A stretch of DNA of 61,982 nt, from contig JAUWLW010000012.1 of the NCBI GenBank assembly GCA_030613505.1, positions 1 to 61,982 on the forward strand, in the 5' to 3' direction. The notes beneath the pieces are model-generated. The model searched no databases. It was not told the DNA's origin and worked only from the letters and a program-made list of their open reading frames with translations. Shown piece after piece: positions 10,322-39,182 of this stretch. The DNA is from Candidatus Zixiibacteriota bacterium (GTDB lineage Bacteria > RBG-13-66-14 > B26-G2 > WVWN01). Numbering within the stretch: position 1 is the stretch's first letter; every line of letters begins with the position of its first letter. A program made the position numbers and the translations under genes.

Positions 10322-11050
10322 ATGACGGCGAAACCGCGCACGGCGGTAGACTGGCTCGAGTTTCTGCCCGGGAGGTTGGAGCAGACGCTGTTGGGGTACG
10401 ACGTTTCCCGGGACCAGATAGCGTCGCTCTGTGACGCCGCTGTGCACGAGAGGTTCTACGCCGTCGTGGTTAACCCCACCCACGTCCGCTTTGCCGCCGA
10501 GCGCTTGGCCGACGCGCCGGTGAAGACGGTTACGGTCGTGGGGTTCCCGATGGGGGCCAACGCCAAGGCGGTGAAAGTTTTCGAGACGCGGGACGCGCTG
10601 GCGCGGGGCGCGGACGAATTCGACATGGTCATAAACATTTCGGCGTTGACGCACGGCTACTTCGAATTCGTGTGCGGCGAGATCCGCGACGTCGTGGCCG
10701 CGGCCGACGGCCGGCCGGTCAAGGTCATAATCGAGTGCGGCGCGCTCACGGCCAACCAGAAGGTGGTCGCCGGCGACCTCGTGTGCCGGGCCGGCGCGCA
10801 TTTCGTAAAGACCTCCACCGGCTACGGCCCGGGCGGCGCGATGGAGGAGGACGTGCGGCTCCTGCGAAAGGTAGTCGGCGCCGCCGTCGGCATCAAGGCC
10901 TCCGGCGGAATACGGTCGTACGAGCGCGCGCTCAACCTCATGTCGGCGGGGGCGGACCGCGTCGGCACGTCGAGCGGCGTTGTCATTATGGAGGGGCTCC
11001 GCTACGCGGTGAAGGCGGGCCGCCTGGGCGACGCGGTCGTGAGAAGTTGA
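10322..11050 (+). CDS. deoC: Deoxyribose-phosphate aldolase
   Basis: DeoC reversibly splits 2-deoxyribose 5-phosphate into acetaldehyde and glyceraldehyde 3-phosphate in deoxynucleoside salvage. The 242-residue barrel contains VVGFPMGA, DEFDMVIN (the acidic active-site residue), KVIIECGALT, the Schiff-base lysine in FVKTSTGYG and the second lysine in GIKASGGIR, followed by GTSSGV. The N-terminal helix reads LEQTLL where many relatives have DHTLL. The gene starts 3 bases after the bactofilin-like gene and is followed at 1 base by the methyltransferase, so a loose operon is likely. Confidence 0.95.
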   Translation: MTAKPRTAVDWLEFLPGRLEQTLLGYDVSRDQIASLCDAAVHERFYAVVVNPTHVRFAAERLADAPVKTVTVVGFPMGANAKAVKVFETRDALARGADEFDMVINISALTHGYFEFVCGEIRDVVAAADGRPVKVIIECGALTANQKVVAGDLVCRAGAHFVKTSTGYGPGGAMEEDVRLLRKVVGAAVGIKASGGIRSYERALNLMSAGADRVGTSSGVVIMEGLRYAVKAGRLGDAVVRS

Positions 11051-11051
11051 C

Positions 11052-12047
11052 GTGGCGCCGTCGGAAAAGAAGCCGATACAATGCCCTAATTGCAACTCCT
11101 CCGAATATAAAGTTATACTGTCGGGGTGCGACTGGGAGTTTGGAAATCCCGGCGCTTTTTTTATTTTGCGGTGCCGCGCGTGTTCCTGGCGGTGGACCTG
11201 GCCGGCGGCTTCGGCGTCGTCGCTGGCGGCCTTGTATCCTGAGGATTCGTATTACGCCTACCGGCGCCCGGCACGCCCGCCGGCCGGCATCCGCGAGGCG
11301 GTTATCCGGGCGGCGCGCGGGTACCCGCCGAAGACGAAGGCGCCGGCGGCGTTGCGGCCGGCCGTAGCCGCCCTGGCACCGTGGCTGCGGCGCCGCTACC
11401 ACGACGTTCCGGAATACCGCGCGGGAGGCAGGTTGCTCGATGTCGGCTCCGGGGCCGGGGATTACTTATCGCTCGTCCGCGCCCTTGGCGGGGCGGCGGT
11501 GGGGGTCGAGGCCAACGAGGCCGCGGCGGCCCGGGCGCGCGAGGCGGGCTTGGACGTCGTAACCGGCGATGCGGCGGAAGTGCTGAGTTCGGGCGCTGTC
11601 GCCGGCCCCTTCGACGTGATAAGATTCCACCACACGTTGGAGCACCTCGTCGAGCCGCGGCGGGCGTTGCTGGCGGCCGCGGCGCTTGGGTGCCACGGCG
11701 CCCGGATGTGCGTGGCCGTGCCCAGCGCCGACGGCGCGGCGGCCCGTCTCTTCGGCCGCTACTGGTACCACTGGGCGCTTCCGTTCCACAGGACCCATTT
11801 CACCGTTAAGACCTTGCGGGAATTGTTGCGCGCCGCCGGGTGGAGGCCGACGCGCGTGTACTTCGTATCCGCGCCGGCGGGTTTTATCCGGACCGTCTTG
11901 TGCTGGCTGCTGTACGAGCGGGGAATTAATATAAAGCCGGGAAACAGGGTTGAGCGCCTCGCCGGCAAGTTATTGCGGCCGCTGGTGTTCTCGCTCGATT
12001 TTATGCGCTTCGGCGACAATCTCATCGTCGAGGCGGTTAAACCGTAA
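11052..12047 (+). CDS. Class I SAM-dependent methyltransferase with N-terminal zinc-ribbon-like motif
   Basis: A 331-residue protein that starts at GTG, one base after deoC. Residues about 9-45 hold two CxxC pairs (CPNC, CRAC) like a zinc ribbon. The Rossmann methyltransferase core has motif I LLDVGSGAGDYL (about 128-140), the acidic VEAN turn, and FHHTLEHLVEP, the signature of the Methyltransf_23 group. The zinc-ribbon/methyltransferase pattern is typical of enzymes acting on nucleotide-sugar or small-molecule precursors. The substrate is unknown. Confidence 0.85.
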   Translation: MAPSEKKPIQCPNCNSSEYKVILSGCDWEFGNPGAFFILRCRACSWRWTWPAASASSLAALYPEDSYYAYRRPARPPAGIREAVIRAARGYPPKTKAPAALRPAVAALAPWLRRRYHDVPEYRAGGRLLDVGSGAGDYLSLVRALGGAAVGVEANEAAAARAREAGLDVVTGDAAEVLSSGAVAGPFDVIRFHHTLEHLVEPRRALLAAAALGCHGARMCVAVPSADGAAARLFGRYWYHWALPFHRTHFTVKTLRELLRAAGWRPTRVYFVSAPAGFIRTVLCWLLYERGINIKPGNRVERLAGKLLRPLVFSLDFMRFGDNLIVEAVKP

Positions 12048-12079: not shown

Positions 12080-14083
12080 ATGAAGAGAAGACGCTTTTTG
12101 GAGGTAACCGGGGCGGCCGGCGCCTGGGCGGCCGCTGGCGGCCTGGGAACCCTTGTGGCCTCGTGCGGCGAGCGCCGCGTCGAACGGCGCGGCGCCGCCA
12201 GGCGCGTAGTGGTGTTGGGCGTCGGCGGCATGGACGCCGGCGTCGTCGAGCGCATGATGGCCGAGGGTAAGCTGCCGAACCTCGCCGCGTTGGCCCGGGC
12301 CGGGACGTTCGCGACCCTTCGCACGACGACGCCCGCGGAGGCCCCGGTGGCTTGGGCCGCGTTCGCCACCGGCGCGGGCCCGGGTAGAAATGGCATCTTC
12401 GGCCATTTCGGCCGGAACGCGGATACGTATCGCACGACCGTCGCAGACGTCTGTTGCGAGCCCGGAAGGTACCTCGGCGATTGGCCCGTCGGCGGCCCCC
12501 GTTGCCGCTCGAACCTGAACGGCGAGCCTTTCTGGCGGTACGCCGCGCGCGAGGGCATAGCTACCGCGGCCTTGTGGGCTCCCGCCGAATTCCCGCCCCA
12601 AGAGGTGGAGGGCAGTTCTTTTTTGGCGGGCGGCGACGTCCCCGACGCGAGCCTGGGCGCGTATAATTATCATTTTTTCGCCACCGATAAGCATTTCGGC
12701 GAGCGTGACACGGCCGCGGGCGGGATATGGCGTAAGATAGATAGGCGCGGCGGCGTCGGTCGCGTGGCGTTGGAGCCGCCGGCGTGTTTGGCGGGCCGCG
12801 AGCTCGAGATAACGTTCGAGCCCGAGACCGAGCTATATTTGAATATTTCCGTGGCGGGGCGGAAGCAGCGCGTGAGGACCCGTACCTACAGCCATTACTT
12901 CTCGTTTCCTTTCGGGCGGGGGGTCTTGGGCCCCGGTCGCGTTATGGGTAGGTTCTTCGTGGCCTCGTCGGCGCCCGAGATACGGGTGTGGTTGTCGCCG
13001 CTCGAGGTGGACCCGCGCAAGCCGCTCTTCGACGTGGCGGCGCCGGCGCGCTTCGGCGAGGAGCTCGCGGCGGACGGCCCCTTCAGCACCCGCGGTAAGC
13101 CGCTCGACCTCGGCGCGCTTTACGACGGCGTTATCGGGCGGGGGCCGTTCGTCGGGCAATATTGCACCGAAGTCGAAGAGAAGCGCCGGCTGGGTTTGTT
13201 GACTTGGCAGCGGCACCGGCCGGACCTCTTCCTCCTCTTCGATTACGGCTTGGACGAAATCGCGCAAGTCCTCTGGCGCCATTACGACCCCGCGCACCCG
13301 GCCTACGACGACGAACTGTTCTTCTCGTACGGCGAGGCCTTCGAGCTCGCATACCGTTACGTCGACGAGACGCTGGGGAAATTTCTACGGGCAGCGGGTA
13401 GCGACGACGTCGCGTTCTTCGTCGTTTCGGCGCACGGCAACCGGTCCTTCCGCCGCAGTTTTTGCCCGGGCCGGTGGTTGCTCGAGAACGGTTATTTGGA
13501 ACTAGTTCCCGGCGCTAAGCCCTGGGGCGTCGACGCGCCCACGCCGGAAGCGGCGCTCCGCCGGGGCCGGTACCGGCCCGCGGTGGCGTGGGACCGGACG
13601 CGGGCGTACGCCCAGGGGTACGGCCAGATCTATCTAAACGTCAAGGGCCGGGAAAAGCGCGGGACCGTCGCCCACGGCGAGGTGAAGCGGTTGAAGGCCG
13701 AACTCCGCGGCCGCCTCCTCGACGCGCGCGACGGCGGCCGGAAGCCGGTGGTGGAGGTGGGCGACGGCGACGAGCTCTTCGCCGGGCCGCGCCGTTTTTG
13801 CGCGCCGGACCTCGTCGTCTCGCTGGCGGACGGGTACCGCGTCTCGTGGGAATCCGTACTGGGGGGCTTCGCCGGCGCCGTCTTCGCGGACAATCGCGGC
13901 GTCGTGTCCGGCCACCACGCCTCCGTCGCGCCGGACGCGGTACGCGGGTTGATATTCTCGAATTTGAAGTTGGACGCTTCCGGCGCGGCGGTGGAGGACG
14001 CGGGGCCGACGATATTGCGCACCCTGGGCCTCGAGCCGCCCGGCGGCGTCGACGGCGTCCCTATGGAGGCGGGGCCGCGTTAG
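12080..14083 (+). CDS. Tat-exported lipoprotein, alkaline-phosphatase-superfamily pseudoenzyme
   Basis: A 667-residue member of the type I phosphodiesterase/nucleotide pyrophosphatase branch of the alkaline phosphatase superfamily. The N-terminus has a twin-arginine signal (KRRRFLEVTG) ending in a lipobox-like VASC (Cys 29). The fold landmarks are present, but the usual metal ligands and nucleophile are changed. The expected GxDG reads GVGG (Gly 49), the nucleophile Ser/Thr before PVAW reads AEAPVAW (Ala 88), the DxxxH metal pair reads DEIAQ (Gln 396), and SDHG reads SAHG (Ala 451). The intact relative at 34524-35903 has all of these. I infer loss of catalysis, so a binding or structural role at the membrane. 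The frame is long and undamaged, so it is not a pseudogene. It converges with ispD with a 4-base overlap. Confidence 0.85.
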   Translation: MKRRRFLEVTGAAGAWAAAGGLGTLVASCGERRVERRGAARRVVVLGVGGMDAGVVERMMAEGKLPNLAALARAGTFATLRTTTPAEAPVAWAAFATGAGPGRNGIFGHFGRNADTYRTTVADVCCEPGRYLGDWPVGGPRCRSNLNGEPFWRYAAREGIATAALWAPAEFPPQEVEGSSFLAGGDVPDASLGAYNYHFFATDKHFGERDTAAGGIWRKIDRRGGVGRVALEPPACLAGRELEITFEPETELYLNISVAGRKQRVRTRTYSHYFSFPFGRGVLGPGRVMGRFFVASSAPEIRVWLSPLEVDPRKPLFDVAAPARFGEELAADGPFSTRGKPLDLGALYDGVIGRGPFVGQYCTEVEEKRRLGLLTWQRHRPDLFLLFDYGLDEIAQVLWRHYDPAHPAYDDELFFSYGEAFELAYRYVDETLGKFLRAAGSDDVAFFVVSAHGNRSFRRSFCPGRWLLENGYLELVPGAKPWGVDAPTPEAALRRGRYRPAVAWDRTRAYAQGYGQIYLNVKGREKRGTVAHGEVKRLKAELRGRLLDARDGGRKPVVEVGDGDELFAGPRRFCAPDLVVSLADGYRVSWESVLGGFAGAVFADNRGVVSGHHASVAPDAVRGLIFSNLKLDASGAAVEDAGPTILRTLGLEPPGGVDGVPMEAGPR

Positions 14084-14805
14084 CGGCCTTTTTTCTTGAG
14101 GGTGAGAACGGCCTCGGCGCGTGCGAGGTCTTCGGGGAAGGTTATTTTGAAGTTGTCGCGTTCGCCCTCGACGGACACGACGCGGCCGCCGGTTCGCTCG
14201 ACCGCCGCGGCGTCGTCGGTTACGTCCCACCTCTCGCGCGCCGCCGTCCGGTAGGCCTCGGCGACGGCCGCCAATTTGAAGGCTTGCGGCGTTTGTGCCG
14301 CGCGTAGGGCGTCGCGGGTGAGCGTGTTTTCGACGGCGCCGTCGTCGCCGATTTGCTTCACGGTGTCGACCAGCGGGACCGCGGGTACCGCGCCGTCGGC
14401 CGTCGCGAGCGCCGCCAGCAGGCGGCGCACCAGCGTCCGGGTCGCCAGCGGGCGCGCCGCGTCGTGGATGAGGACCGCGGCGTCGGCGGAGGCGAGGGCC
14501 GCGGCCGCGGCCAACCCCGCTACCGCCGCATCGCGCCGTGCCGCGCCGCCCGCGACGATGGCTCGAACCTTGTCGAAGCCGTAATCCGATGCGAGCCGGC
14601 GGAGTTTATTTTCGGAGCCCGGCGCGGCCACCGCCACTACCGCTTCCACCTCTTCACATTCCTCGAAGAGGGCCAGGCCGTAATATACTAAAGGGCGCCC
14701 GGCGAGGGGCGCGTAAATTTTGTCGCGGCCGCTCATGCGGCTGGAAGAGCCGGCCGCCAGGACTACGGCCGTGACGCGCACCGCTTTTCGCTTTTCGTCT
14801 CCCAT
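14080..14805 (-). CDS. ispD: 2-C-methyl-D-erythritol 4-phosphate cytidylyltransferase
   Basis: IspD makes CDP-methylerythritol, the third step of the MEP route to isoprenoid precursors. In 241 residues it shows the nucleotide-binding start VVLAAGSSSRM, the invariant loop Lys in GRDKIYAPLAGRP, VLIHDAARPL, and VENTLTRDALRAAQTPQAF, then VTDDAAAVE and NFKITFPEDL. It is the last gene of a minus-strand run, 3 bases after the PIN-TRAM gene, a common bacterial neighbour. Its presence implies the MEP pathway, notable beside the archaeal-type HMG-CoA synthase at 53.7 kb. No IspF fusion is present. Confidence 0.96.
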   Translation of the reverse strand: MGDEKRKAVRVTAVVLAAGSSSRMSGRDKIYAPLAGRPLVYYGLALFEECEEVEAVVAVAAPGSENKLRRLASDYGFDKVRAIVAGGAARRDAAVAGLAAAAALASADAAVLIHDAARPLATRTLVRRLLAALATADGAVPAVPLVDTVKQIGDDGAVENTLTRDALRAAQTPQAFKLAAVAEAYRTAARERWDVTDDAAAVERTGGRVVSVEGERDNFKITFPEDLARAEAVLTLKKKGR

Positions 14806-28762: not shown

Positions 28763-30616
28763 CTACTCGATATAACCCAAAGCGCGAAGGTCCGCGGCGC
28801 CGGCCGCGTCCAACGTTGACACCTTGGCTCTTCCTTGTCGGTCGACTTCCCGTTTCCAGGATTGAATCCGCACCCGCAGGCGCGCGGCGATTTCGTCTTC
28901 CGGGAGCGGCTTCAGCTCGCCCGGGTCGCGCCGTAGGTTGAAATATTTCCCCGGTTGGCTCATGTCTTCGTGCTTCACGATGAGTTTGTAGGGCCATACG
29001 ATTATGGCGTCTTCCCGCGGCCCGCGTTTTCGCGGGCGGGTGAACTCGCTGCCGACGAAGATAGGCCGCGGCTCCTCGCCGCCGTCGGAAAGCGGAAGGG
29101 GGCGTCCTTGAAACGTCGCCGGGGCCTCGAGCCCCGCGAGCGCCAAGATGGTGGGCGCGAGGTCGACCTGGCTGACCGGCGTGTCGACCTTCGCGGGGGA
29201 TTCGCCGGGCGCCGCGATGAACAGCGGGACGCGGATTACAGGTTCGTAGACGGATTTGCCGTGGTCCCACGTGTCGTGCTCCCAAAATTCTTCGCCGTGG
29301 TCGCCGGTGAAGATTACGATCGTATTTTCGTCGCCGGCGAGCGTGGGGAGGACCATCGGCGCCAGCAAATCGTCCACGAACGTACATTCGCCCTCGTAAA
29401 GGCGGTGGTGGGCGAATCGCCGGCCTTTCATTTTGGGCCGGTATTGTTTTATAAACCTTCCGTCGCGGGGGAGGTAATACCCGGGGGGCGGCGAGTAGGG
29501 GGCGTGGGGGTCCATGTAATGGACCCAGAGGAAATAGGGGCGGCGGTGCGGCCGGGCGAGATAACGTCCCAATAACACCGTTAGCTCGCGGCTGGTTGCG
29601 GGGCACAGCTTACGCTCCATCAGCGTGCGGGCCGCCGGGCCGTACCAATTGGTGTAGTAAAAGCAGGTAGCCCGCAGGAGGGGAAGCCATTGCCAATAGA
29701 CGAAATTGTCGAAACCGTCCGTCAGCGGGCTGTGCCGGTCGACGAGGCGGTTGGCGACGAAGGCGGTGGTTTCGTATCCGGCGTCGCGGAATAGTTGGGC
29801 CAGCGTGGGGCTGACGACGTCCGCCCGCGGCCCCGAGCGCGCGACGTGCGTATCCACGTATTGGCCCGTAAAGACCGAACCCATGGAGGGGGTGGTCCAC
29901 GACGCGGCGGACCACGCGCGCCGATAGACGATCGCGTTGCTCTCCGTGTACTCGTGGAGGTGGGGCGTGAGGCTGTCGCGGAACGCGTCCGCGCGCCAGG
30001 CGTCGAGGACGACGAGGACGACGTTCGGACCGTGGGCGACGGGTCTCAACGCGGCCTCGGCCCAGCGCGCCGCGACGAGCGCCACGAAGGCGACGGCGCC
30101 GGCGACGCGCAATACCCGCCCCGCTGCCGCCCACCAGTTTCGCCCCACGACGTAGCGCCGCAACGCGAGCGTCCCTACTACGCCCAGAAGCGCGAAGACG
30201 GCCCAGTAGCCGAGGAACGGCCCGACGTCGCCGAGGGCCCACGTCGCGAAGCCGAGGTCTACCTTGCGGGGCACGAAAAGGCCGGCGACGAACCACCCCA
30301 GGCGCGACGCCGCGACCGCGGCCGCGGCGACCGCGCCCCGCCACGGCGGCGTTTTCCCGGCCCTTTCTTTTCGGGTAACTATGAGTTTTCGACCGGCGTT
30401 GACGACCTCGGCTATTACTATAACCGTCAGCACCAGGGAGCCGTAAAACACCGAGCGGCCGTACGCCGATTCCAACAGCCGGTCGGGTTGCCACGTGTAA
30501 AAGGGCGGCCAGAAACGATTGATAATCGCCTCCGACGCGCCCCAAAAGAACGCCGTCGCCGCGGCGAACGTAATAAAGGAGACTATTTTTAAGAGCGCTT
30601 TTTTTGCTTTGTCCAC
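28763..30616 (-). CDS. Five-TM sulfatase-like hydrolase/transferase, paralogue 1
   Basis: A 617-residue protein with five membrane helices in the first 190 residues and an extracytoplasmic sulfatase-fold domain (about 200-600). The metal site starts VVLDAWRAD, the nucleophile position is Thr 241 in SWTTPSM rather than the Cys/Ser of formylglycine sulfatases, and TGDHGEEFWEH carries later metal ligands. The architecture resembles LtaS/EptA-type phosphoglycerol or phosphoethanolamine transferases, so modification of an envelope polymer or lipid is more likely than sulfate release. The start is GTG 30616 with a poor ribosome-binding site. FFWGASEAIIN in helix 1 is shared with the next two genes. 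Confidence 0.82.
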   Translation of the reverse strand: MDKAKKALLKIVSFITFAAATAFFWGASEAIINRFWPPFYTWQPDRLLESAYGRSVFYGSLVLTVIVIAEVVNAGRKLIVTRKERAGKTPPWRGAVAAAAVAASRLGWFVAGLFVPRKVDLGFATWALGDVGPFLGYWAVFALLGVVGTLALRRYVVGRNWWAAAGRVLRVAGAVAFVALVAARWAEAALRPVAHGPNVVLVVLDAWRADAFRDSLTPHLHEYTESNAIVYRRAWSAASWTTPSMGSVFTGQYVDTHVARSGPRADVVSPTLAQLFRDAGYETTAFVANRLVDRHSPLTDGFDNFVYWQWLPLLRATCFYYTNWYGPAARTLMERKLCPATSRELTVLLGRYLARPHRRPYFLWVHYMDPHAPYSPPPGYYLPRDGRFIKQYRPKMKGRRFAHHRLYEGECTFVDDLLAPMVLPTLAGDENTIVIFTGDHGEEFWEHDTWDHGKSVYEPVIRVPLFIAAPGESPAKVDTPVSQVDLAPTILALAGLEAPATFQGRPLPLSDGGEEPRPIFVGSEFTRPRKRGPREDAIIVWPYKLIVKHEDMSQPGKYFNLRRDPGELKPLPEDEIAARLRVRIQSWKREVDRQGRAKVSTLDAAGAADLRALGYIE

Positions 30617-30779
30617 GCTATTCGAGAAGCTCGAGCCGCGGCGTTAATCTCGTCTTCCATATGGGCCGACGCGCGTGCCCCGAGACGTCTTGCGATAGCG
30701 ACGGGCGCAAACGCTTCGTTCGTCACGGCCCGCCACGCCGGCCTGCCCCGGCGCGTTCCTCGCGGCAAGGTGGTTTGCT

Positions 30780-32636
30780 CTATTGAACGTAACCCAAGGC
30801 GCGGAGGTCCGCGGCGTCCGCGAAATCCGCGGCTCGAGCGGGCTGCGAGTCTTTGGGCTTAACGGCCTTCTTCCACTTTTTCAATTTCGCCCGGAGCGCT
30901 CGGGCCGCGTCGTCTTCCGGGAGGCGGTTGCGCTCGCCCGGGTCTTGCTCCAGGTTGTAGTACTCGCCGGGCGCGTCCATCTTCCAGTGCTCGAGGCTCA
31001 ACTTCCAAGGCCACAGTACGACGGCGTCTCGCCGCGGCGGCCGGTAGTCTTTCCGGTCGGTGTAATCGCTGCCGATGAAGATTAGTTTGTCTTGGCCCTC
31101 CCGCGGCGTCCCCACGAGAGGCCGCCCGGGCATATCAGCGGGTACGTCGACGCCGGCGAGGTAGAGGAAAGTCGGCGTCAGGTCGATGAGGCCGGTGGGC
31201 ACGTCGCTCACGGCCGGCTCCCGCCCCGGGACCGCGACTATGAGGGGCACGCGCGTGACCGTTTCGTAGACCGATTTGCCGTGGCCGTACGTGTAGTGCT
31301 CCCAGAACTCCTCGCCGTGGTCGCTGGTTATAATTACGACGGTGTTGTCGGGGTCCGGTATGGCCTTGAAAACTCGCGGCAGGAGGTCGTCCAGGAAGGC
31401 GCATTCGCCCTCGTAGAGGCGGTGGTAGGCGTCGCCCCGCTCGCGCAGGTAGGGCTTATGGTCTTTTATGAATTTTTCGTCGGCGGGGTCGTAGTAACCG
31501 GGCGGGGGGTTATACGGCGCGTGGGGGTCCATATAGTGTACCCACAAAAAGAACGGCCTGCGGCGCGGCCCGGCGAGGTACGACCGCGTAAGCCGCGTGA
31601 TAGTGCGGCTCGTCTCGGGCCGGTACCGTTTGCGGGGGAGGTACTTTTGGCGGACCGGCGCGCAGCACCAGTTGGTGCTGTAAAAATGTATCGCGCGGAG
31701 GCGCGGCCGCCAGTCCCAGTATATGAAGTAATCGAAGCCGGTGGTAATAGGCGTATAGTGCTCCAGGACGGTGTTGCCCACGACGGCGCCGGTGTCGTAA
31801 CCGACGTCGCGCAGGTACGCCGCCGCGGTGCGGTGGAGGTCGTGCGTGGGCCGGGGCCACAGCCGCGTCGCGTCCGGATAGTGGCCCGTAAAGCACGCCG
31901 CCATCGACGGGTACGTCCACGGCGCGCACGCCCACGTGCGTTCGTAAACGACGGCGTTTTTTTCCGCGTAGGCCGACAGCTTGGGCATAAGGTCCGGCCG
32001 AAAGCAATCGGCTCGCCACGCGTCGAGCACGATGAACAGGATATTGGGGCCTCGGGGAACGGGCCGGAGGGCGGGGACGACGAAGTGCGCCGCGACGAGA
32101 AGGGCGAACCCCGCGACGCCGACGACGCGCAAGACCTTCCCGGCCCGCCGCCACCGCTTTCCCGCGGCGCGCCGGGCTAGTAGGACGGCGAGGCCTACGC
32201 CCAGAACGACGAACGCGAGCCAATATTCTAAAAACGGCGCCGGCTCGCGGAGGTTCACGACCAAATCGCCGATCTTAACTTTGCCTTTGCGGAAGAGGCC
32301 GATGACGAACCAGCCGACGTTGGAAGTTACCAACGCCGCCGTTACCGCGGCGGTACCCCACCGGCGCGCCGTCTCCAGCACCCGTTTGCCGGTTAGGAGT
32401 TTCACGACGCCGGATATTATTAACGCCGCGACGGCCGCGGCCGCGGCGAGCATGCCTACGACGAAGAAGTAGAACACCGCCCGCCGGTACGCCGATTCGT
32501 AGACGAGGTCGCCCCACCACGTCCCGGCGGGGTGCCAGAAATAGTTGAAGACGGCTTCCGTCGCGCCCCAGAAGAACGCCAAGGCTACGACGAACGTCGC
32601 CCATGCCAAAACACTCTTTAACGTTTTGATAACCAT
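30780..32636 (-). CDS. Five-TM sulfatase-like hydrolase/transferase, paralogue 2
   Basis: A 618-residue tandem paralogue of the gene at 28763. It has the same layout: five N-terminal helices with FFWGATEAVFNYFW, then the catalytic domain with VVLDAWRADCF, WTYPSM (Thr at the nucleophile position) and SDHGEEFWEH plus YGHGKSVYE. The conserved LWVHYMDPHAPYNPPPGYY block (positions about 378-396) binds the active-site side in this group. It is separated from paralogue 1 by 163 bases that hold no clear promoter or gene, and from paralogue 3 by 44 bases. Confidence 0.83.
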   Translation of the reverse strand: MVIKTLKSVLAWATFVVALAFFWGATEAVFNYFWHPAGTWWGDLVYESAYRRAVFYFFVVGMLAAAAAVAALIISGVVKLLTGKRVLETARRWGTAAVTAALVTSNVGWFVIGLFRKGKVKIGDLVVNLREPAPFLEYWLAFVVLGVGLAVLLARRAAGKRWRRAGKVLRVVGVAGFALLVAAHFVVPALRPVPRGPNILFIVLDAWRADCFRPDLMPKLSAYAEKNAVVYERTWACAPWTYPSMAACFTGHYPDATRLWPRPTHDLHRTAAAYLRDVGYDTGAVVGNTVLEHYTPITTGFDYFIYWDWRPRLRAIHFYSTNWCCAPVRQKYLPRKRYRPETSRTITRLTRSYLAGPRRRPFFLWVHYMDPHAPYNPPPGYYDPADEKFIKDHKPYLRERGDAYHRLYEGECAFLDDLLPRVFKAIPDPDNTVVIITSDHGEEFWEHYTYGHGKSVYETVTRVPLIVAVPGREPAVSDVPTGLIDLTPTFLYLAGVDVPADMPGRPLVGTPREGQDKLIFIGSDYTDRKDYRPPRRDAVVLWPWKLSLEHWKMDAPGEYYNLEQDPGERNRLPEDDAARALRAKLKKWKKAVKPKDSQPARAADFADAADLRALGYVQ

Positions 32637-32680
32637 GCGGTAACTCTATTTTCCATGCCGGCCTGTTGAAATCGTAGCTA

Positions 32681-34516
32681 TTAAATATACCCTAGGGCCC
32701 GGAGGTCCGGCGCCGCCTCGTCCCCATAATCCGGACAAGTGTATGCTTGTTTATTCTCCGCCCTCCACGCTCGAAGCGCCCTTCGGAGCCGTTTGGCGTT
32801 GTCGTCTCGCGGCAGTCGGTGCTTCTCGCCGGGGTCGGCGGCGAGGTTGTAGTATTCGCCCCGTCGCCCGGGTTTTTCGTGAAACAAGATAAGTTTATAA
32901 GGCCAAATGATTACGGCGTCCCGGCGTTCGGGTTTTTTCGCGCGGAGCCTGAAAGAAAAGCTCCCGATGAATACGGGCCGACTCTCGTCGTGGATAACGC
33001 CGCCCGCCGGCGTGAGGAAAGGCCGGCCCTGCATCGTTGGCGGCGGCTCGCGCCCCGCGAGTGTCAGGAATGTCGGCGCGACGTCCACCAGGCTTACGGG
33101 GGTGCGGACTACCTCCGCCTCCGCGCCCGGCAAAGACATAATTAGAGGTACGCGTACCAGCGTATCGTATACCGACTTGCCGTGGCCGTACGTATACTTC
33201 CGGTGTTCCCAGAATTCCTCGCCGTGGTCCGCCGTGATCGCGACGACGGTGCGCGGTCGCGAGGCCAGCTCGGGTACGACTTCCCCCAATAAGTCGTCCA
33301 TAAAAACACATTCGCCGTCGTAAAGCCGTTTGTAAGCGTCGCGCAGGCCGGGGTCCCACGGACGGTAGTCCTGGATGTACTTCTCGTCGGCGGGGTCGTA
33401 GTAGCCGGGGGGAGGTTTGTAGGGGCCGTGGGGGTCCATGTAATGTACCCACAGGAAATAGGGGCGCTTGTGGGGGCGGTTGGCGTACGAGGCCATTTTC
33501 CGGGTAAGAATTTGGCTGTCCCGGTAGCTCGGCTTGCCGTGGAAAAGGTCGCGCACCGCCGGGCCGTACCAGTGCGTCTCGTAGAAATGTATGCCGCTGA
33601 GAACCGGGTTCCAACCCGGGAAGTAGAAATTCTCGAAGCCGTCGTTTATAGTGTTGTGGCGGTTGAGGATGCGGTTTGCTGAGAAGGCCGTGGTCTCGTA
33701 ACCGGCCGCGTATAGGAGCTGCGCCAGCGTGGGGTTACGGTTATCCGAGTCGGGGTGCCGGCGGAGCTTGTGCGTGTCGTGGTATTGCCCGGTGAACGTC
33801 GTCGTCATCGCCGGCAGCGTCCACGTCCCGTTGGTCCACGCGCGCTCGAAGAAGAGGGCTTTTTCCCGGCTGAACGAGTATAAATTGGGCATCAAATCCG
33901 GCCGCAGCGTATCGGCCCGCCAGGCGTCGAGGACGATAAGAATTATATTGGGCCCGGTGGCTCGCGGCCGCAACGTTTGAGACGCGTGGTAGGTAACGAC
34001 GACCGCGAGGAAAAGCGCCGCGCCGGCCGCTTGGAGGTATCGCGCCGTTTTCCTCGCCCAGCGTCTCTTCCCCAACGCGAACGCGAGGCCGAAGGCCACT
34101 GCCGCCCCCGCGAGCGCGAAGAACCCCCAGTACTCGAAAAAAGGCGCCCGCTCCTGTATGTCCAGTTTGAAGAGGCCGACGTTCAGTTCGTAGGAGTTGG
34201 CCAGGCCGAGCGTTAACCAGCCGGCGTTGACCGCGACGACGGCCGCGACCGCGGTCGCGCCGCTCCACCGCCCGGGGCCCCCCGGCCACCGCCTCTCTAT
34301 GAGCGCCTTCAATCCAACTGCCAGGAGGGTTATAACGGCCACCGCCGCGGCGTAGAAGACCACGCGGTTGTACGTCGAGGGGAGCCACAGGTCCGTCCGC
34401 CACACGCCCTTGGGCGGCCAACGGTAATTGATAAAAGCTTCCGCCGCGCCCCAGAAGAACGCGACGGCGGCGACGAACGCCGCCCATGCCAGGATTCTCC
34501 GCAAGACTCTAGCCAT
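32681..34516 (-). CDS. Five-TM sulfatase-like hydrolase/transferase, paralogue 3
   Basis: A 611-residue tandem paralogue with FFWGAAEAFINYRWPP in helix 1, VVLDAWRADTL, WTLPAM (Thr at the nucleophile position), ADHGEEFWEH and YGHGKSVYD. It starts 7 bases downstream of the alkaline-phosphatase-superfamily gene, so those two are almost surely one transcript. The three copies are clearly diverged from each other, so the triplication is old and each copy may act on a different acceptor. The exact reaction cannot be read from sequence. Confidence 0.83.
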   Translation of the reverse strand: MARVLRRILAWAAFVAAVAFFWGAAEAFINYRWPPKGVWRTDLWLPSTYNRVVFYAAAVAVITLLAVGLKALIERRWPGGPGRWSGATAVAAVVAVNAGWLTLGLANSYELNVGLFKLDIQERAPFFEYWGFFALAGAAVAFGLAFALGKRRWARKTARYLQAAGAALFLAVVVTYHASQTLRPRATGPNIILIVLDAWRADTLRPDLMPNLYSFSREKALFFERAWTNGTWTLPAMTTTFTGQYHDTHKLRRHPDSDNRNPTLAQLLYAAGYETTAFSANRILNRHNTINDGFENFYFPGWNPVLSGIHFYETHWYGPAVRDLFHGKPSYRDSQILTRKMASYANRPHKRPYFLWVHYMDPHGPYKPPPGYYDPADEKYIQDYRPWDPGLRDAYKRLYDGECVFMDDLLGEVVPELASRPRTVVAITADHGEEFWEHRKYTYGHGKSVYDTLVRVPLIMSLPGAEAEVVRTPVSLVDVAPTFLTLAGREPPPTMQGRPFLTPAGGVIHDESRPVFIGSFSFRLRAKKPERRDAVIIWPYKLILFHEKPGRRGEYYNLAADPGEKHRLPRDDNAKRLRRALRAWRAENKQAYTCPDYGDEAAPDLRALGYI

Positions 34517-34523
34517 CGCGGCG

Positions 34524-35903
34524 TTAACCGATGATTTTTCCTATTGTGTTTTTGGGGGGCTCGAGGCCGAAGGCCTTTATTACCGTCGGCGCCACGTCGT
34601 AGATTTTAAGGTCGTCGCGGCGGCCGGAGGCCACGCCCGGGCCGGCGTAAGCGCAGATGCCGTGCTGGGCGTGGTTGGCGTCGTCGGGGCCGGTGTCGTT
34701 CTCGTGGACGTGGACCGCGGCGTTGCCGACGGAGCCGATGGACCGCCAGTCGAGGTCGCCGAAGTAGACGATCAGGTCCGGCGCGACGTTGCCGACGGCG
34801 CGGTAGAGCTCCTCCGGCCTGAACGCCCGCGTACCGATGTTGACGCCCTGTTCGTCCGTTATGGCCTCGAGCTTTTCCTTGAGCTCGGTGCGTACTTTCT
34901 CGTAATCGCCGGCCGGGATGGTGCCCTGCGGCTCGCGGCCCGCGACGTTGAGGAAGCACCGGCCGTAGTAGCCGCCGTCGCCCCAGGCCGTCGTCTTTTC
35001 CCAGTCGACGAGGTCGTATTTAAACTTCGTCCGCTCGAGCGGCGGCTCCTTGAGCGCCAGGTAACCCTCTTTAATCAACCAATCGTTGAAGCAGATGCCG
35101 CCGACCATACTCTTGATGCCGTGGTCCGAGACTATCATGACGTGGGCGTCGTCCGGCAGCACCGCTATGAACTCGCCGACCTTGCCGTCCAAGTAGACGT
35201 AGTATTCTTTTAATTTATCCTTGTAGCGCGGGTCCTCCTCGTAGTTGGGATGCGTCGGGTCGAAGTACTTCCACATGCCGTGGTGCAGCCGGTCCGGCCC
35301 CATCTCGACGAACATAAGGAAGTCCCACGGCTTGTTGGTGGCCAGCCACCGGACGACGTCGAAGCGGTTGGCGGTCATCTTCCACACCTGCTCGAGGAGG
35401 TACTCCTTGTCGTCGGTGCGGAAGTCGCCGACGTCGATGATGTATTCGCCGAACTCTTTTATTATTTCGCTCTTGAGCGAGGCGGGGTAGGTGAACTCGC
35501 TGTCGGCGTCGGGCGTGAGGAAGCAGGAGATGAGGTGGCCGTTGACCGGCTTGGGCGGGTAGCTGGGCGGCACGCCGACGACGATGACCTGCTTGCCGGC
35601 GCGGCCCAGCACGTCCCAAGCCGCGTCGACGCGGACCGCCTGCGAGTTGGCGAAGAAGAGGCCGTCGTAGGAGTGGTCGCGGCGGTTGCGGAAGCCGTAG
35701 AAGCCGAGCTGGCCCGGGTCCTGCGACGTCATCATGCACATCCACGCCGGGACCGTGATGGCCGGGATGGTGGACTCCAGCGGCCCCCAGGTGCCGCGTT
35801 CCACTATGGATTTAATGTTCGGCAGCTCGTCTAGCCACTTGTCGAATACGAGGACCGGGTCCGCGCAGTCCAGGCCGATGACGGCGAGTTTGGGAGTGGG
35901 CAT
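34524..35903 (-). CDS. Alkaline-phosphatase-superfamily (type I phosphodiesterase-like) enzyme, intact
   Basis: A 459-residue protein without a signal peptide, so likely cytoplasmic. All catalytic landmarks are present: metal Asp 12 in GLDCAD, nucleophile Thr 50 in PAITVPAW, GPDRLHH with the DxxxH metal pair, VSDHG, and a late His in NHAQHG. Relatives hydrolyse phosphodiesters or nucleotide pyrophosphates, but the substrate here is unknown. It lies between the type IIG gene (18 bases upstream) and the three sulfatase-like genes. Two dead copies of its first codons occur at 39763-39825 and 40622-40732, and the remote pseudoenzyme at 12080 is a relative. Confidence 0.9.
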   Translation of the reverse strand: MPTPKLAVIGLDCADPVLVFDKWLDELPNIKSIVERGTWGPLESTIPAITVPAWMCMMTSQDPGQLGFYGFRNRRDHSYDGLFFANSQAVRVDAAWDVLGRAGKQVIVVGVPPSYPPKPVNGHLISCFLTPDADSEFTYPASLKSEIIKEFGEYIIDVGDFRTDDKEYLLEQVWKMTANRFDVVRWLATNKPWDFLMFVEMGPDRLHHGMWKYFDPTHPNYEEDPRYKDKLKEYYVYLDGKVGEFIAVLPDDAHVMIVSDHGIKSMVGGICFNDWLIKEGYLALKEPPLERTKFKYDLVDWEKTTAWGDGGYYGRCFLNVAGREPQGTIPAGDYEKVRTELKEKLEAITDEQGVNIGTRAFRPEELYRAVGNVAPDLIVYFGDLDWRSIGSVGNAAVHVHENDTGPDDANHAQHGICAYAGPGVASGRRDDLKIYDVAPTVIKAFGLEPPKNTIGKIIG

Positions 35904-35921: not shown

Positions 35922-38900
35922 CTAGGCGTAACGCTCGCCGGGTTTCCAACGTTTAACGGCGATAACGCGCGTGGGAGCGCCGGGCAACTCGGTCTTAATA
36001 ACTTCGCTTAAAGGGAACTCTTTTACGCGTCGTTTTATAAATTTCTTTTCCGCCGCCGTAAGCTCGGAATACGCGTCGAGCACCAAGTCATCCAACTCGG
36101 CTTCGAGGGCGCGGAGTTTTTCGGCGAGCGTCGGTTTGCGGGCGGACCATTCTTCTAAAATAGTTAACGCTTCCGCTAGGGTCGACGCGTCGCGGGGAAC
36201 GGGCGTCGCCTCGAGAGCTTTTTTAGATAAATAATCTTTACTCTCGAGCAAAGCCCGATAAAGGATATATTTCAGAACGTCGACGTCGCCGCGAACGGAA
36301 CTTAACGAGTCATCTTGAAGGACACCTTCGTCGAATACCTCCGAACTCTCGACGTGTAGTTTCGCGATATAAGGCCGGAAGTCGGCGCTCGGGTGTTGGG
36401 CGAAGGGGACCGTCGCCCCGCCTATCGCCTTGTCCAATTTTTCCGTTACCGCCCGGTCGCCGCCGACCATCTCGCGCGCCAGGTCGTGGGCTCTCGCTGA
36501 AGCGCCAGCTATCGCGGCGGTTAAGCCCGGTTCCTTAATTAACCTAGCGGGGAAGGGCAAGGACTCGAGGACGCGTACGTAGAAATGCGAATAAAATTTC
36601 TGGATTACGCCGGCCCTTAAGTTTAAAAGGGCGTAATAACGCGGCACTAATGAATTTATTAAACCGGCTAATAAACAGGGGTCGTTCGGATATCCGGGTT
36701 TGGATTTAGCGGCGCTACAACCCATAAGCGTATTTAGGAAAACCGTAAACCGCTCGGGCCGAAAAACTACGGCCTGCGCCGTTAAAGATAAGTTAGGTAC
36801 TATTACTTGGTTTTCTTCGAAGAACGCACGTGACTTAGCGTCGGACAATACTTCTTCGCGGTAGTCGATGTAGCGGCCTTGCCAGTCTATGGACCAGGCG
36901 CGGACTTCGCGGCCGTCGAGAACCGGGACCGGGTTGCCGATTTCCTTCGGGTCTTCTGATATCAACTTACTACGGTCGACTTTGGTGCGGGTCGCCGCGC
37001 CCCAGCCGGCAGAGAGAGGCTTGGGGCACTGGTTAAGCTTTTCGAGGATCGGTAAGTCGCCGGCGGTTAGTTGCAAGCGCCAGGAGCCGTCGGGCGCGAG
37101 GCTGACCCAGCGGTCTTGCTCGACCTCCTCGTATACTTCCGCGGCGGGGCCGGCTAAGTCGTCGAGGGTCCTTATGCCCGGTACTATTTTTACTTTATGG
37201 CCTTCGGGAGGCGGCGTTTTAGTGAGGAATAATAGGAAAGGGTTGACGTTTGCCGAAAAGACTTTGCACCATTCCAGCGGGACTACCTTATCTATTTGGT
37301 TTTCGGCTAGGGCGTCCCGTACCAGCGTCGCGGAGTCCGCGTCGGCGACGCCCAGCGATACGATTACCCCTAATTTGCTTCCCTCCTCGAGCCAATCCAA
37401 CCCTTTGAGGAGGAAATAATTGCTAATGTCGGTATTACCTTTACGGAAGCGGGAAAACGCGTCGGTATAGGCCGCGCGTGCCTCGCGCGACAAGCGCTCG
37501 TTACGGATGTAGGGGGGGTTTCCTACCACGTACTGGAATTCGGCGCCCGAGTCCCGCATTTTTTCCGCGGCTTCGAGTTGGTCGTTATAATATATGTCGG
37601 CCAGGAGGCTGGGCTCTACGTCGGGGGCCCACCCTACAAGAGAGTCGATATTAAAGACGTTGAACTTCGGCAGCGTGTATTCCTCGGCGTAACGTTCGCC
37701 GCGCCTTCGGGCTTCGTCGTACGTGTTAAGGGTGGCGAAGAGGAGGTTCATTACGGTTATGTGCGTCGCGAAAGGGTTTATGTCGAAACCGACGACGCGG
37801 CTTAACGCGTTTAAACGTTCGGCCGCAGATACTCGTTTACTTTTTAATTCGGCCAGAAGCGATTGAGCTGCGGGTACGACAAAACCGCCGGAGCCGCAAG
37901 CGAAATCTAAAATTTTACCTGGCCCGGGCCACCCGACCTCCTTCAATATATACTCGGTTACTTCGCGCGGCGTATAGAACTCACCCAGCTTTTTCCTCTT
38001 TTCGGGGGGCAAGTATTCCTGGTAAAGTTCGGCTAAAACGTTTTCGTCCACCTCTTTGAAGTTGAACGCGTTCAATAGGAAAAAAACTCGTTCCAGGACG
38101 CGGTTTAGGGCGCCGTCGTCTTTGATATACCAGTCGAACAACCCCGGCTCAAAGAACCAAGGATAGAGAAAAGCGGCGTCGTGGTACGCTACGTTTAATA
38201 GCTCGGGATAAGCGTCTCTTAAAAAGGTAACGAACGAACGCCAAACGCTAATGCCGCCGTTAGATATTTTGCGGCCTATGAAACCCTTATCTTCGACGAT
38301 GCGGATAAAAAGGATTTTATTAAGCGCCGAGTAAACGACGTCCGTGAAATAGATATCTTGGAGTTCTTTAGGCTTATCGACGGCGCGGGAGTACGGTTGT
38401 ATCGCTTTAAACGCCGGGAAAGATTTTTCGAATATCTCCCGCGGTACTGAAAATTCTTGGTCCAATTCCCGCCGGGCTTTATCGATAAAATATATACGCT
38501 CTTTTTCCAACATTTTTTTAAGGTGTATGCTATGGGTCCGCTCCCGTTTCCTTTCCAATTCGTCGCGTCGCGGTACGTATTCTTTAGAATAGCTATCGTC
38601 GTACTTCTCCCAAGCTTGCGCTACGTAGCCGTACAACAGATCATTGCAAATGCGTAACCCTTCGATAAGGCGGTCTAAATTATCCTCGTTTACCGGTATG
38701 TAGCAAAATTCCGTCTTACCTGTTCGGAAATCTTCCAGAAAGTCTTCTGCTTCCAGATTGGCAGCTGATACCGACCAAAATAATCCCCGGTCGCGGCGGT
38801 CGGGTTTTTTTAAGTTAATTTCGCCTTGCATCCGCCCGGTAGGCGAATATACTTTCATCCTTATTGGGGACGCTAGAATAACGTATATTTCTCCGCCCCG

Positions 38901-39182
38901 CAGATAGCCTAAAGCCTGTTCCAACGTCTTACCCGCTTCTAAGTCGCCGTCGCGGATCTTAGTTTCAAATACTATATGCGGCCTTTTATCGTCCGCGACT
39001 ACCCTTAAGTCGGTCCGGTCGGCTTCGAAACGGATATTCCTATTTTCGTACCCTAAACCTCTATTTATAACTTGTTCTTTAAATAATACCCGCCATTCTA
39101 TTTCCCCCATATCGGGCTTATCGTCGTACTCGGCCCAATATTTTTCCAACCAATCCTTTTCTTTTTTCGTTTTCTTTACCAT
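35922..39182 (-). CDS. Type IIG restriction-modification enzyme (fused nuclease and adenine methyltransferase)
   Basis: A 1086-residue single-chain restriction-modification protein. The N-terminal nuclease domain carries a PD-(D/E)XK pattern: Asp 58 in RTDLRV, then Glu 73 and Lys 75 in VFETK. The central N6-adenine methyltransferase has motif I DFACGSGGF (about 425) and motif IV NPPYIRN (about 555), followed by a large C-terminal target-recognition region. Such enzymes both methylate and cut at one recognition site, which cannot be predicted here. Base composition is much richer in AT than the flanking genes, with many TTA, AAA and ATA codons, suggesting recent transfer. Its ATG lies inside the end of a truncated HEPN gene (ATGGTAA overlap), so it is coupled to the MNT-HEPN transcript. 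Confidence 0.9.
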   Translation of the reverse strand: MVKKTKKEKDWLEKYWAEYDDKPDMGEIEWRVLFKEQVINRGLGYENRNIRFEADRTDLRVVADDKRPHIVFETKIRDGDLEAGKTLEQALGYLRGGEIYVILASPIRMKVYSPTGRMQGEINLKKPDRRDRGLFWSVSAANLEAEDFLEDFRTGKTEFCYIPVNEDNLDRLIEGLRICNDLLYGYVAQAWEKYDDSYSKEYVPRRDELERKRERTHSIHLKKMLEKERIYFIDKARRELDQEFSVPREIFEKSFPAFKAIQPYSRAVDKPKELQDIYFTDVVYSALNKILFIRIVEDKGFIGRKISNGGISVWRSFVTFLRDAYPELLNVAYHDAAFLYPWFFEPGLFDWYIKDDGALNRVLERVFFLLNAFNFKEVDENVLAELYQEYLPPEKRKKLGEFYTPREVTEYILKEVGWPGPGKILDFACGSGGFVVPAAQSLLAELKSKRVSAAERLNALSRVVGFDINPFATHITVMNLLFATLNTYDEARRRGERYAEEYTLPKFNVFNIDSLVGWAPDVEPSLLADIYYNDQLEAAEKMRDSGAEFQYVVGNPPYIRNERLSREARAAYTDAFSRFRKGNTDISNYFLLKGLDWLEEGSKLGVIVSLGVADADSATLVRDALAENQIDKVVPLEWCKVFSANVNPFLLFLTKTPPPEGHKVKIVPGIRTLDDLAGPAAEVYEEVEQDRWVSLAPDGSWRLQLTAGDLPILEKLNQCPKPLSAGWGAATRTKVDRSKLISEDPKEIGNPVPVLDGREVRAWSIDWQGRYIDYREEVLSDAKSRAFFEENQVIVPNLSLTAQAVVFRPERFTVFLNTLMGCSAAKSKPGYPNDPCLLAGLINSLVPRYYALLNLRAGVIQKFYSHFYVRVLESLPFPARLIKEPGLTAAIAGASARAHDLAREMVGGDRAVTEKLDKAIGGATVPFAQHPSADFRPYIAKLHVESSEVFDEGVLQDDSLSSVRGDVDVLKYILYRALLESKDYLSKKALEATPVPRDASTLAEALTILEEWSARKPTLAEKLRALEAELDDLVLDAYSELTAAEKKFIKRRVKEFPLSEVIKTELPGAPTRVIAVKRWKPGERYA

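Follow-up and report, generated by a model that had tools for sequence, protein, structure and literature searches.

A putative pseudoenzyme clade with an alkaline-phosphatase-superfamily fold and a Tat-type lipoprotein signal in one order of Coatesbacteria

Pseudoenzymes have been well studied among kinases and proteases, while in the open-access papers that we searched none was found for the alkaline phosphatase superfamily. The superfamily domain of PorX holds one zinc (Zn1) with Asp360, His364 and His499 and the other (Zn2) with Asp237, Thr271, Asp414 and His415, Thr271 being the nucleophile (PMC11320123). It is the same seven-residue two-zinc site that is found in the intact relatives of the protein described here. 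When the nucleophile is replaced in the T271V mutant, Zn2 is lost, and the D360A/H364A mutant binds only 0.63 Zn per monomer. In addition, the domain is able to form a dimer whose catalytic sites lie face to face (PMC11320123).

The window, by which we mean the whole stretch of 61,982 nucleotides that was analysed, is contig C91 of a 2.86 Mb genome that is 93% complete and has its nearest relatives in Candidatus Coatesbacteria (CP070633, CP070755). The gene under study (Table 1) reads from ATG to stop through 667 codons in both the list of open reading frames and the sequence, and the original prediction of an undamaged frame is borne out. Its product matches PF01663 with 88 bits against a gathering score of 23 (E 1.2e-24). 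An AlphaFold2 model made with 51 sequences is confident (pLDDT 90.2, pTM 0.90), Foldseek ranks phosphonoacetate hydrolase and the Xanthomonas NPP (Xac NPP) at the top for it, and VIA-align places it on Xac NPP (2gsn_A) with Z 26.4 and rmsd 3.5 over 348 aligned residues. By this model, the protein is predicted to have an alkaline-phosphatase-superfamily fold. Genome comparison shows that the arrangement of deoC and this gene is conserved across the order; elsewhere among the sampled classes and orders, deoC and cinA are on contigs separate from the family member. The intervening methyltransferase gene is present in the same-genus genome G003 and was not found at the corresponding place in another, G001, and it is thus no fixed partner of the gene.

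Table 1. Coordinates of the gene, its codons of interest and other features of the window
Feature	Position	Strand	Evidence or remark
deoC, upstream of the putative pseudoenzyme gene	10322..11050	+	proximity retained in a second family of the order
Methyltransferase gene, immediately upstream	11052..12047	+	between deoC and the putative pseudoenzyme gene
Putative pseudoenzyme gene, PF01663 fold, 667 aa	12080..14083	+	ORF calls, Pfam, predicted model, structural alignment
Predicted Tat-type lipoprotein signal, KRRRFL ... LVAS-Cys29	12080..12166	+	sequence; same architecture in intact relatives
Codon 49, Gly replacing the GxDG Zn2-ligand Asp	12224..12226	+	alignments of relatives, 2gsn profile alignment
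Codon 88, nucleophile position, Ala here; intact relatives have Ser/Thr and the 87% orthologue has Ser	12341..12343	+	alignments
Codon 109, His; the orthologues have Arg/Lys/Arg and intact relatives Phe; aligned to Xac NPP Asn111	12404..12406	+	alignments
Codon 392, Zn1-ligand Asp retained (Asn in G003 and G002)	13253..13255	+	alignment
Codon 396, Gln replacing the Zn1-ligand His (Q/R within the genus)	13265..13267	+	alignments
Codon 451, Ala replacing the SDHG Zn2-ligand Asp (Ala throughout the order-level clade)	13430..13432	+	alignments
Codon 452, SDHG His retained	13433..13435	+	alignment
Codon 613, last Zn1-ligand His retained	13916..13918	+	alignment
Terminator-like hairpin and T run at the gene end	14071..14090	+	consensus match only
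IspD-type cytidylyltransferase gene, convergent, overlapping the stop codon	14080..14805	-	named from sequence; dN/dS control
Three consecutive sulfatase-family genes (PF00884)	28763..34516	-	adjoin the intact PF01663 gene at 34524
Distant relative with an intact catalytic site, 459 aa, lacking a signal peptide	34524..35903	-	Pfam, alignment
Eco57I/N6-methylase protein, 1086 aa, TaqI-like specificity domain, additional N-terminal part	35922..39182	-	

Seven positions were scored, namely the ligands of the two zinc ions and the nucleophile (D, S/T, D, H, D, H and H in intact proteins). They were mapped by profile alignment to Xac NPP (2gsn), in which 49 corresponds to the GxDG aspartate, 88 to the nucleophile threonine and 451-452 to the Asp-His of SDHG. 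Aligned with 51 and with 128 relatives, the window protein reads G49, A88, D392, Q396, A451, H452 and H613, and the four substitutions that had been predicted (G49, A88, Q396 and A451) are exactly as claimed. Given that the seven-residue set is incomplete, the protein is a homologue by fold and profile and not a canonical PF01663 enzyme. Three of the four Zn2 ligands, nucleophile included, and one of the three Zn1 ligands are gone, so the dinuclear site should be abolished by comparison with the PorX mutants; canonical dinuclear hydrolysis has almost certainly been lost, as far as the residues predict it. Beyond the four positions originally named, D108, F109, F454, W609 and D612, all family-conserved residues of the catalytic motifs, have been lost as well, the conserved acidic D108 and D612 both being replaced. 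Across the four orthologues compared, no conserved compensating acidic or histidine residue was found near the lost ligands. Two candidates were rejected: D52 corresponds to the second D that intact relatives commonly have in their GxDGxD pattern, and at H612 two orthologues have G/A. For the window protein taken by itself, a simple Fisher test did not separate catalytic from other conserved positions significantly (p 0.059), and the argument for a pseudoenzyme rests instead on sharing across the clade.

Such sharing is indeed found. The same-genus orthologues of G001, G003 and G002 are 87, 70 and 61% identical to the window protein, and a 70%-identical orthologue with the same synteny in L065 (WVWN01000046.1) appears to be that of G003. 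At positions 49/88/392/396/451/452/613 the window protein reads GADQAHH, G001 GSDQAHH, G003 GANRAHH and G002 GANQAHH. Hence all four have lost D49, H396 and D451 while retaining H452 and H613, and two of them retain D392. The loss of the nucleophile is not universal in the genus, since the 87%-identical G001 orthologue has Ser88; sharing across the genus thus holds for G49, Q/R396 and A451 and fails for the change from Ser to Ala at 88. A second family of the order has a positional orthologue (genome G004, L045:9498-11435), located between deoC and cinA. It reads DSEHAYH, with D49, S88 and H396 kept and with E392, A451 and Y452 changed. The five degraded proteins form one clade with support 100/100 in a tree from which the catalytic columns were removed, and with support 100/96 in a separate tree, which extends the loss beyond one genome to five genomes of one clade. 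As judged from sequence, the window gene is part of a conserved pseudoenzyme clade of known fold. Ala451 is the sole canonical loss common to all five members and thus the best candidate for the earliest one, an order given by parsimony only and with a long L045 branch. Compared with L045, the losses of D49 and H396 are limited to the window's genus, and the active site has apparently been dismantled stepwise within one Coatesbacteria order.

Active-site loss is rare in the family, given that all seven positions are intact in 103 of 129 aligned proteins (the window protein and 128 relatives) and that none of 87 further relatives is substituted at the positions it covers, although both samples depend on the search, the second having been collected with a profile that includes degraded members. 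Most of the non-intact remainder of the 129 are fragments or belong to a shorter subfamily whose last column fails to align. Two family members, L144:7827-10262 from Omnitrophota (E49, G88, E396, Y613) and L119:7821-9788 from Deltaproteobacteria (P88, A451, Y452), have several catalytic positions changed, apparently through independent losses. Unusual residues at the position of the nucleophile or of SDHG are also seen in L059:8734-10626 and L106:7851-10019, which are very divergent or possibly misaligned. Kinship of the window clade with L119, which shares Ala451 and Tyr452 with the L045 protein, was considered and rejected: they group in two trees and fall apart without the catalytic columns and with other rows. 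A group of L119 and the genus alone, with L045 left out, is rejected (p-AU 0.008), and the resemblance of L119 to the clade is probably convergent. As to the nearest intact sister of the clade, a grouping of the five degraded rows with the intact class-level L043/L044 is not rejected (p-AU 0.35).

The gene evolves under purifying selection. Nei-Gojobori dN/dS, taken pairwise within the genus, is 0.185 against G001, 0.246 against G003 and 0.320 against G002, and the neighbouring genes (IspD, RecA, CinA, DeoC, DnaX and others) give 0.08-0.41 in the same comparisons. Because independent same-genus assemblies share G49, a non-His396 and A451 and dN/dS is 0.19-0.32, the substitutions are not attributable to sequencing error, to chance or to an oddity of a single genome. 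We counted 96 family-conserved positions, defined as those at which 85% or more of the intact relatives agree. Sixty-seven of them are unchanged in all four genus proteins, and at 12 every one of the four departs from the family residue (49, 108, 109, 233, 320, 344, 396, 451, 454, 503, 609 and 612), eight of these 12 being metal ligands or lying in catalytic motifs (49, 108, 109, 396, 451, 454, 609 and 612). The 67 retained positions and the confident model agree with the claim that fold-defining segments are kept, and the dN/dS range together with the lost canonical residues supports the proposal of selection for something other than hydrolytic chemistry. The former pocket region seems still to be constrained, since invariance among the four proteins is somewhat higher around the motifs than elsewhere (0.61 vs 0.48).

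The original prediction offered the protein at 34524 as an internal control. It serves poorly as one: although catalytically intact, it has no signal peptide, belongs to a distant subfamily and shares only 29% identity with the window protein over ~300 residues of the C-terminal half. A better control is a pair of intact tandem homologues on contig C43 of the same genome (35 and 31% identity), one membrane-anchored and one a Tat lipoprotein, beside which lies a 440-aa intact homologue. In distantly related genomes a recurring cluster (L047:6014-14602, L053:6427-14030 and L048:5741-15615) combines a 471-aa PF01663 protein that is 55% identical to the 34524 protein with an APS-kinase-like protein, a 440-aa PF01663 protein, two PF01663 proteins of 660-720 aa and a 268-aa protein without a Pfam match; parts of such a cluster are split across two contigs in the window's genome. 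On either side of the 34524 gene, the sulfatase-family proteins have hydrophobic, membrane-like N-terminal parts, and the 1086-aa protein resembles a type IIG restriction-modification enzyme. Some intact relatives have as neighbours genes for an NDP-sugar epimerase, a glycosyltransferase, YceG and an LPG-synthase-like membrane protein, which would be compatible with an envelope role.

In the N-terminus of the window protein, MKRRRFLEVTGAAGAWAAAGGLGTLVASCGERR, a twin-arginine motif is followed by a hydrophobic stretch and by a lipobox whose cysteine is residue 29 (KRRRFL ... LVASC), by which the protein is predicted to be a Tat-exported lipoprotein. This signal had been taken as a notable clue. 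However, the same type of N-terminus is found in the intact class-level L043 and L044, in L024 and in the second intact tandem paralogue (MKRRNFLKATGTGAAVAAAGGLAPLLEAC), so the signal is apparently inherited and says little about present function. The comparison was made by eye, a regular-expression count being crude and missing true lipoboxes such as LLEAC. The signal looks inherited from an ancestor enzyme that plausibly needed folding with zinc.

In our view, the best overall explanation, with a probability of roughly 0.55, is a non-hydrolytic Tat lipoprotein with a stepwise-eroded site that would bind a ligand or a partner in the envelope. Since the gene is intact and under selection despite the lost residues, the protein now probably binds rather than cuts, and we lean towards non-catalytic ligand binding as the selected function; a ligand-binding or scaffold role is plausible. 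An ancestral exported two-zinc phosphodiesterase-fold protein would have lost its site stepwise within one order, and the present protein would bind a phospho-, sulfo- or nucleotide-type ligand of the envelope, or a partner protein, without hydrolysis. The window's genus would have gained a basic residue (H/R/K109; R396 in one genome) that could hold an anion without metal. Position 109, aligned with Asn111 of Xac NPP, a phosphate-oxygen ligand, is basic in all four genus proteins and Ser in the G004 orthologue. The basic 109 and the loss of D49, D108, D451 and D612 make a metal-free anion site plausible, and anion binding in the former pocket is a tentative hypothesis, drawn from a single genus and from no more than two of its positions. 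More doubtful is the fuller version, in which the two-zinc pocket was rebuilt as a metal-free anion receptor and a sister-family intermediate (D49/S88/H396 kept, D451/H452 lost) is extant.

Many pseudoenzymes modulate partner proteins, and the dead protein might likewise associate with the intact tandem paralogues and modulate them as a regulatory or structural partner. We consider this unlikely. The intact tandem pair, complete or in part, occurs in each of the five genomes that have the degraded gene, but common descent confounds this co-occurrence, the pair is also present in other genomes that have no dead protein, and the pair and the gene are not neighbours in the window's genome. The dimerisation of the PorX superfamily domain with facing sites (PMC11320123) would nevertheless suit such an association. 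A still less probable alternative is that the protein has remained an enzyme, a mononuclear or metal-independent hydrolase, transferase or lyase acting through D392, H452, H613 and new residues. One metal might still bind, given the conservation of H452 and H613 and the presence of D392 in two of four, and residual activity is possible in the G004 orthologue with its D49, S88 and H396; moreover, a review warns that pseudoenzymes may have their catalytic residues moved to other positions (PMC10211241). Against this, the residue at 88 differs among the four proteins (A/S/A/A), two orthologues have Asn at 392 and nothing acidic or His is conserved near the lost ligands in compensation. Finally, a slowly decaying relic with no selected function is very improbable, for although the stem branch is long (~0.9-1.1 changes per column) and ligand loss is progressive, the frame is open in every genome of the lineage examined, dN/dS is comparable to that of the neighbours, the 67 positions are kept and order-level synteny is maintained.

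The intact class-level relatives, the half-degraded order-level orthologue and the more degraded genus form a natural series in which to study how a protein can stay useful while its metal site is taken apart. They also caution against labelling all PF01663 matches as phosphodiesterases.

Like other PF01663 proteins (Xanthomonas NPP 2gsn, human ENPPs), the window protein has the fold, over residues 38-667, the GxDG and SDHG positions and the order of ligands. Unlike them, it has four of the seven metal and nucleophile residues replaced and is a predicted Tat lipoprotein, and only 348 of its 667 residues align to Xac NPP, its family having a long extra middle part. Phosphonoacetate hydrolase (1ei6, 3szy; TIGR02335) gives the best Foldseek E-values, and its NCBIfam model matches the window protein over the N-terminal motif, but the window protein lacks the catalytic residues and misses the equivalog cut-off by far (28.9 bits vs 407.55). 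With the intact PF01663 proteins of 660-800 aa from Coatesbacteria, Acidobacteriota, Zixibacteria, Omnitrophota and others it shares ~26-36% identity over most of its length and, with several of them, a Tat-lipoprotein N-terminus; in contrast to the window protein, these keep all seven catalytic positions. PorX, the type IX secretion regulator, differs from the window protein, as predicted from its residues, in being an active zinc phosphodiesterase and a response regulator, and its domain can act through dimerisation as well as catalysis. In being a conserved protein whose catalytic residues were lost in a clade, the window protein is comparable to pseudokinases, pseudonucleases and iRhoms.
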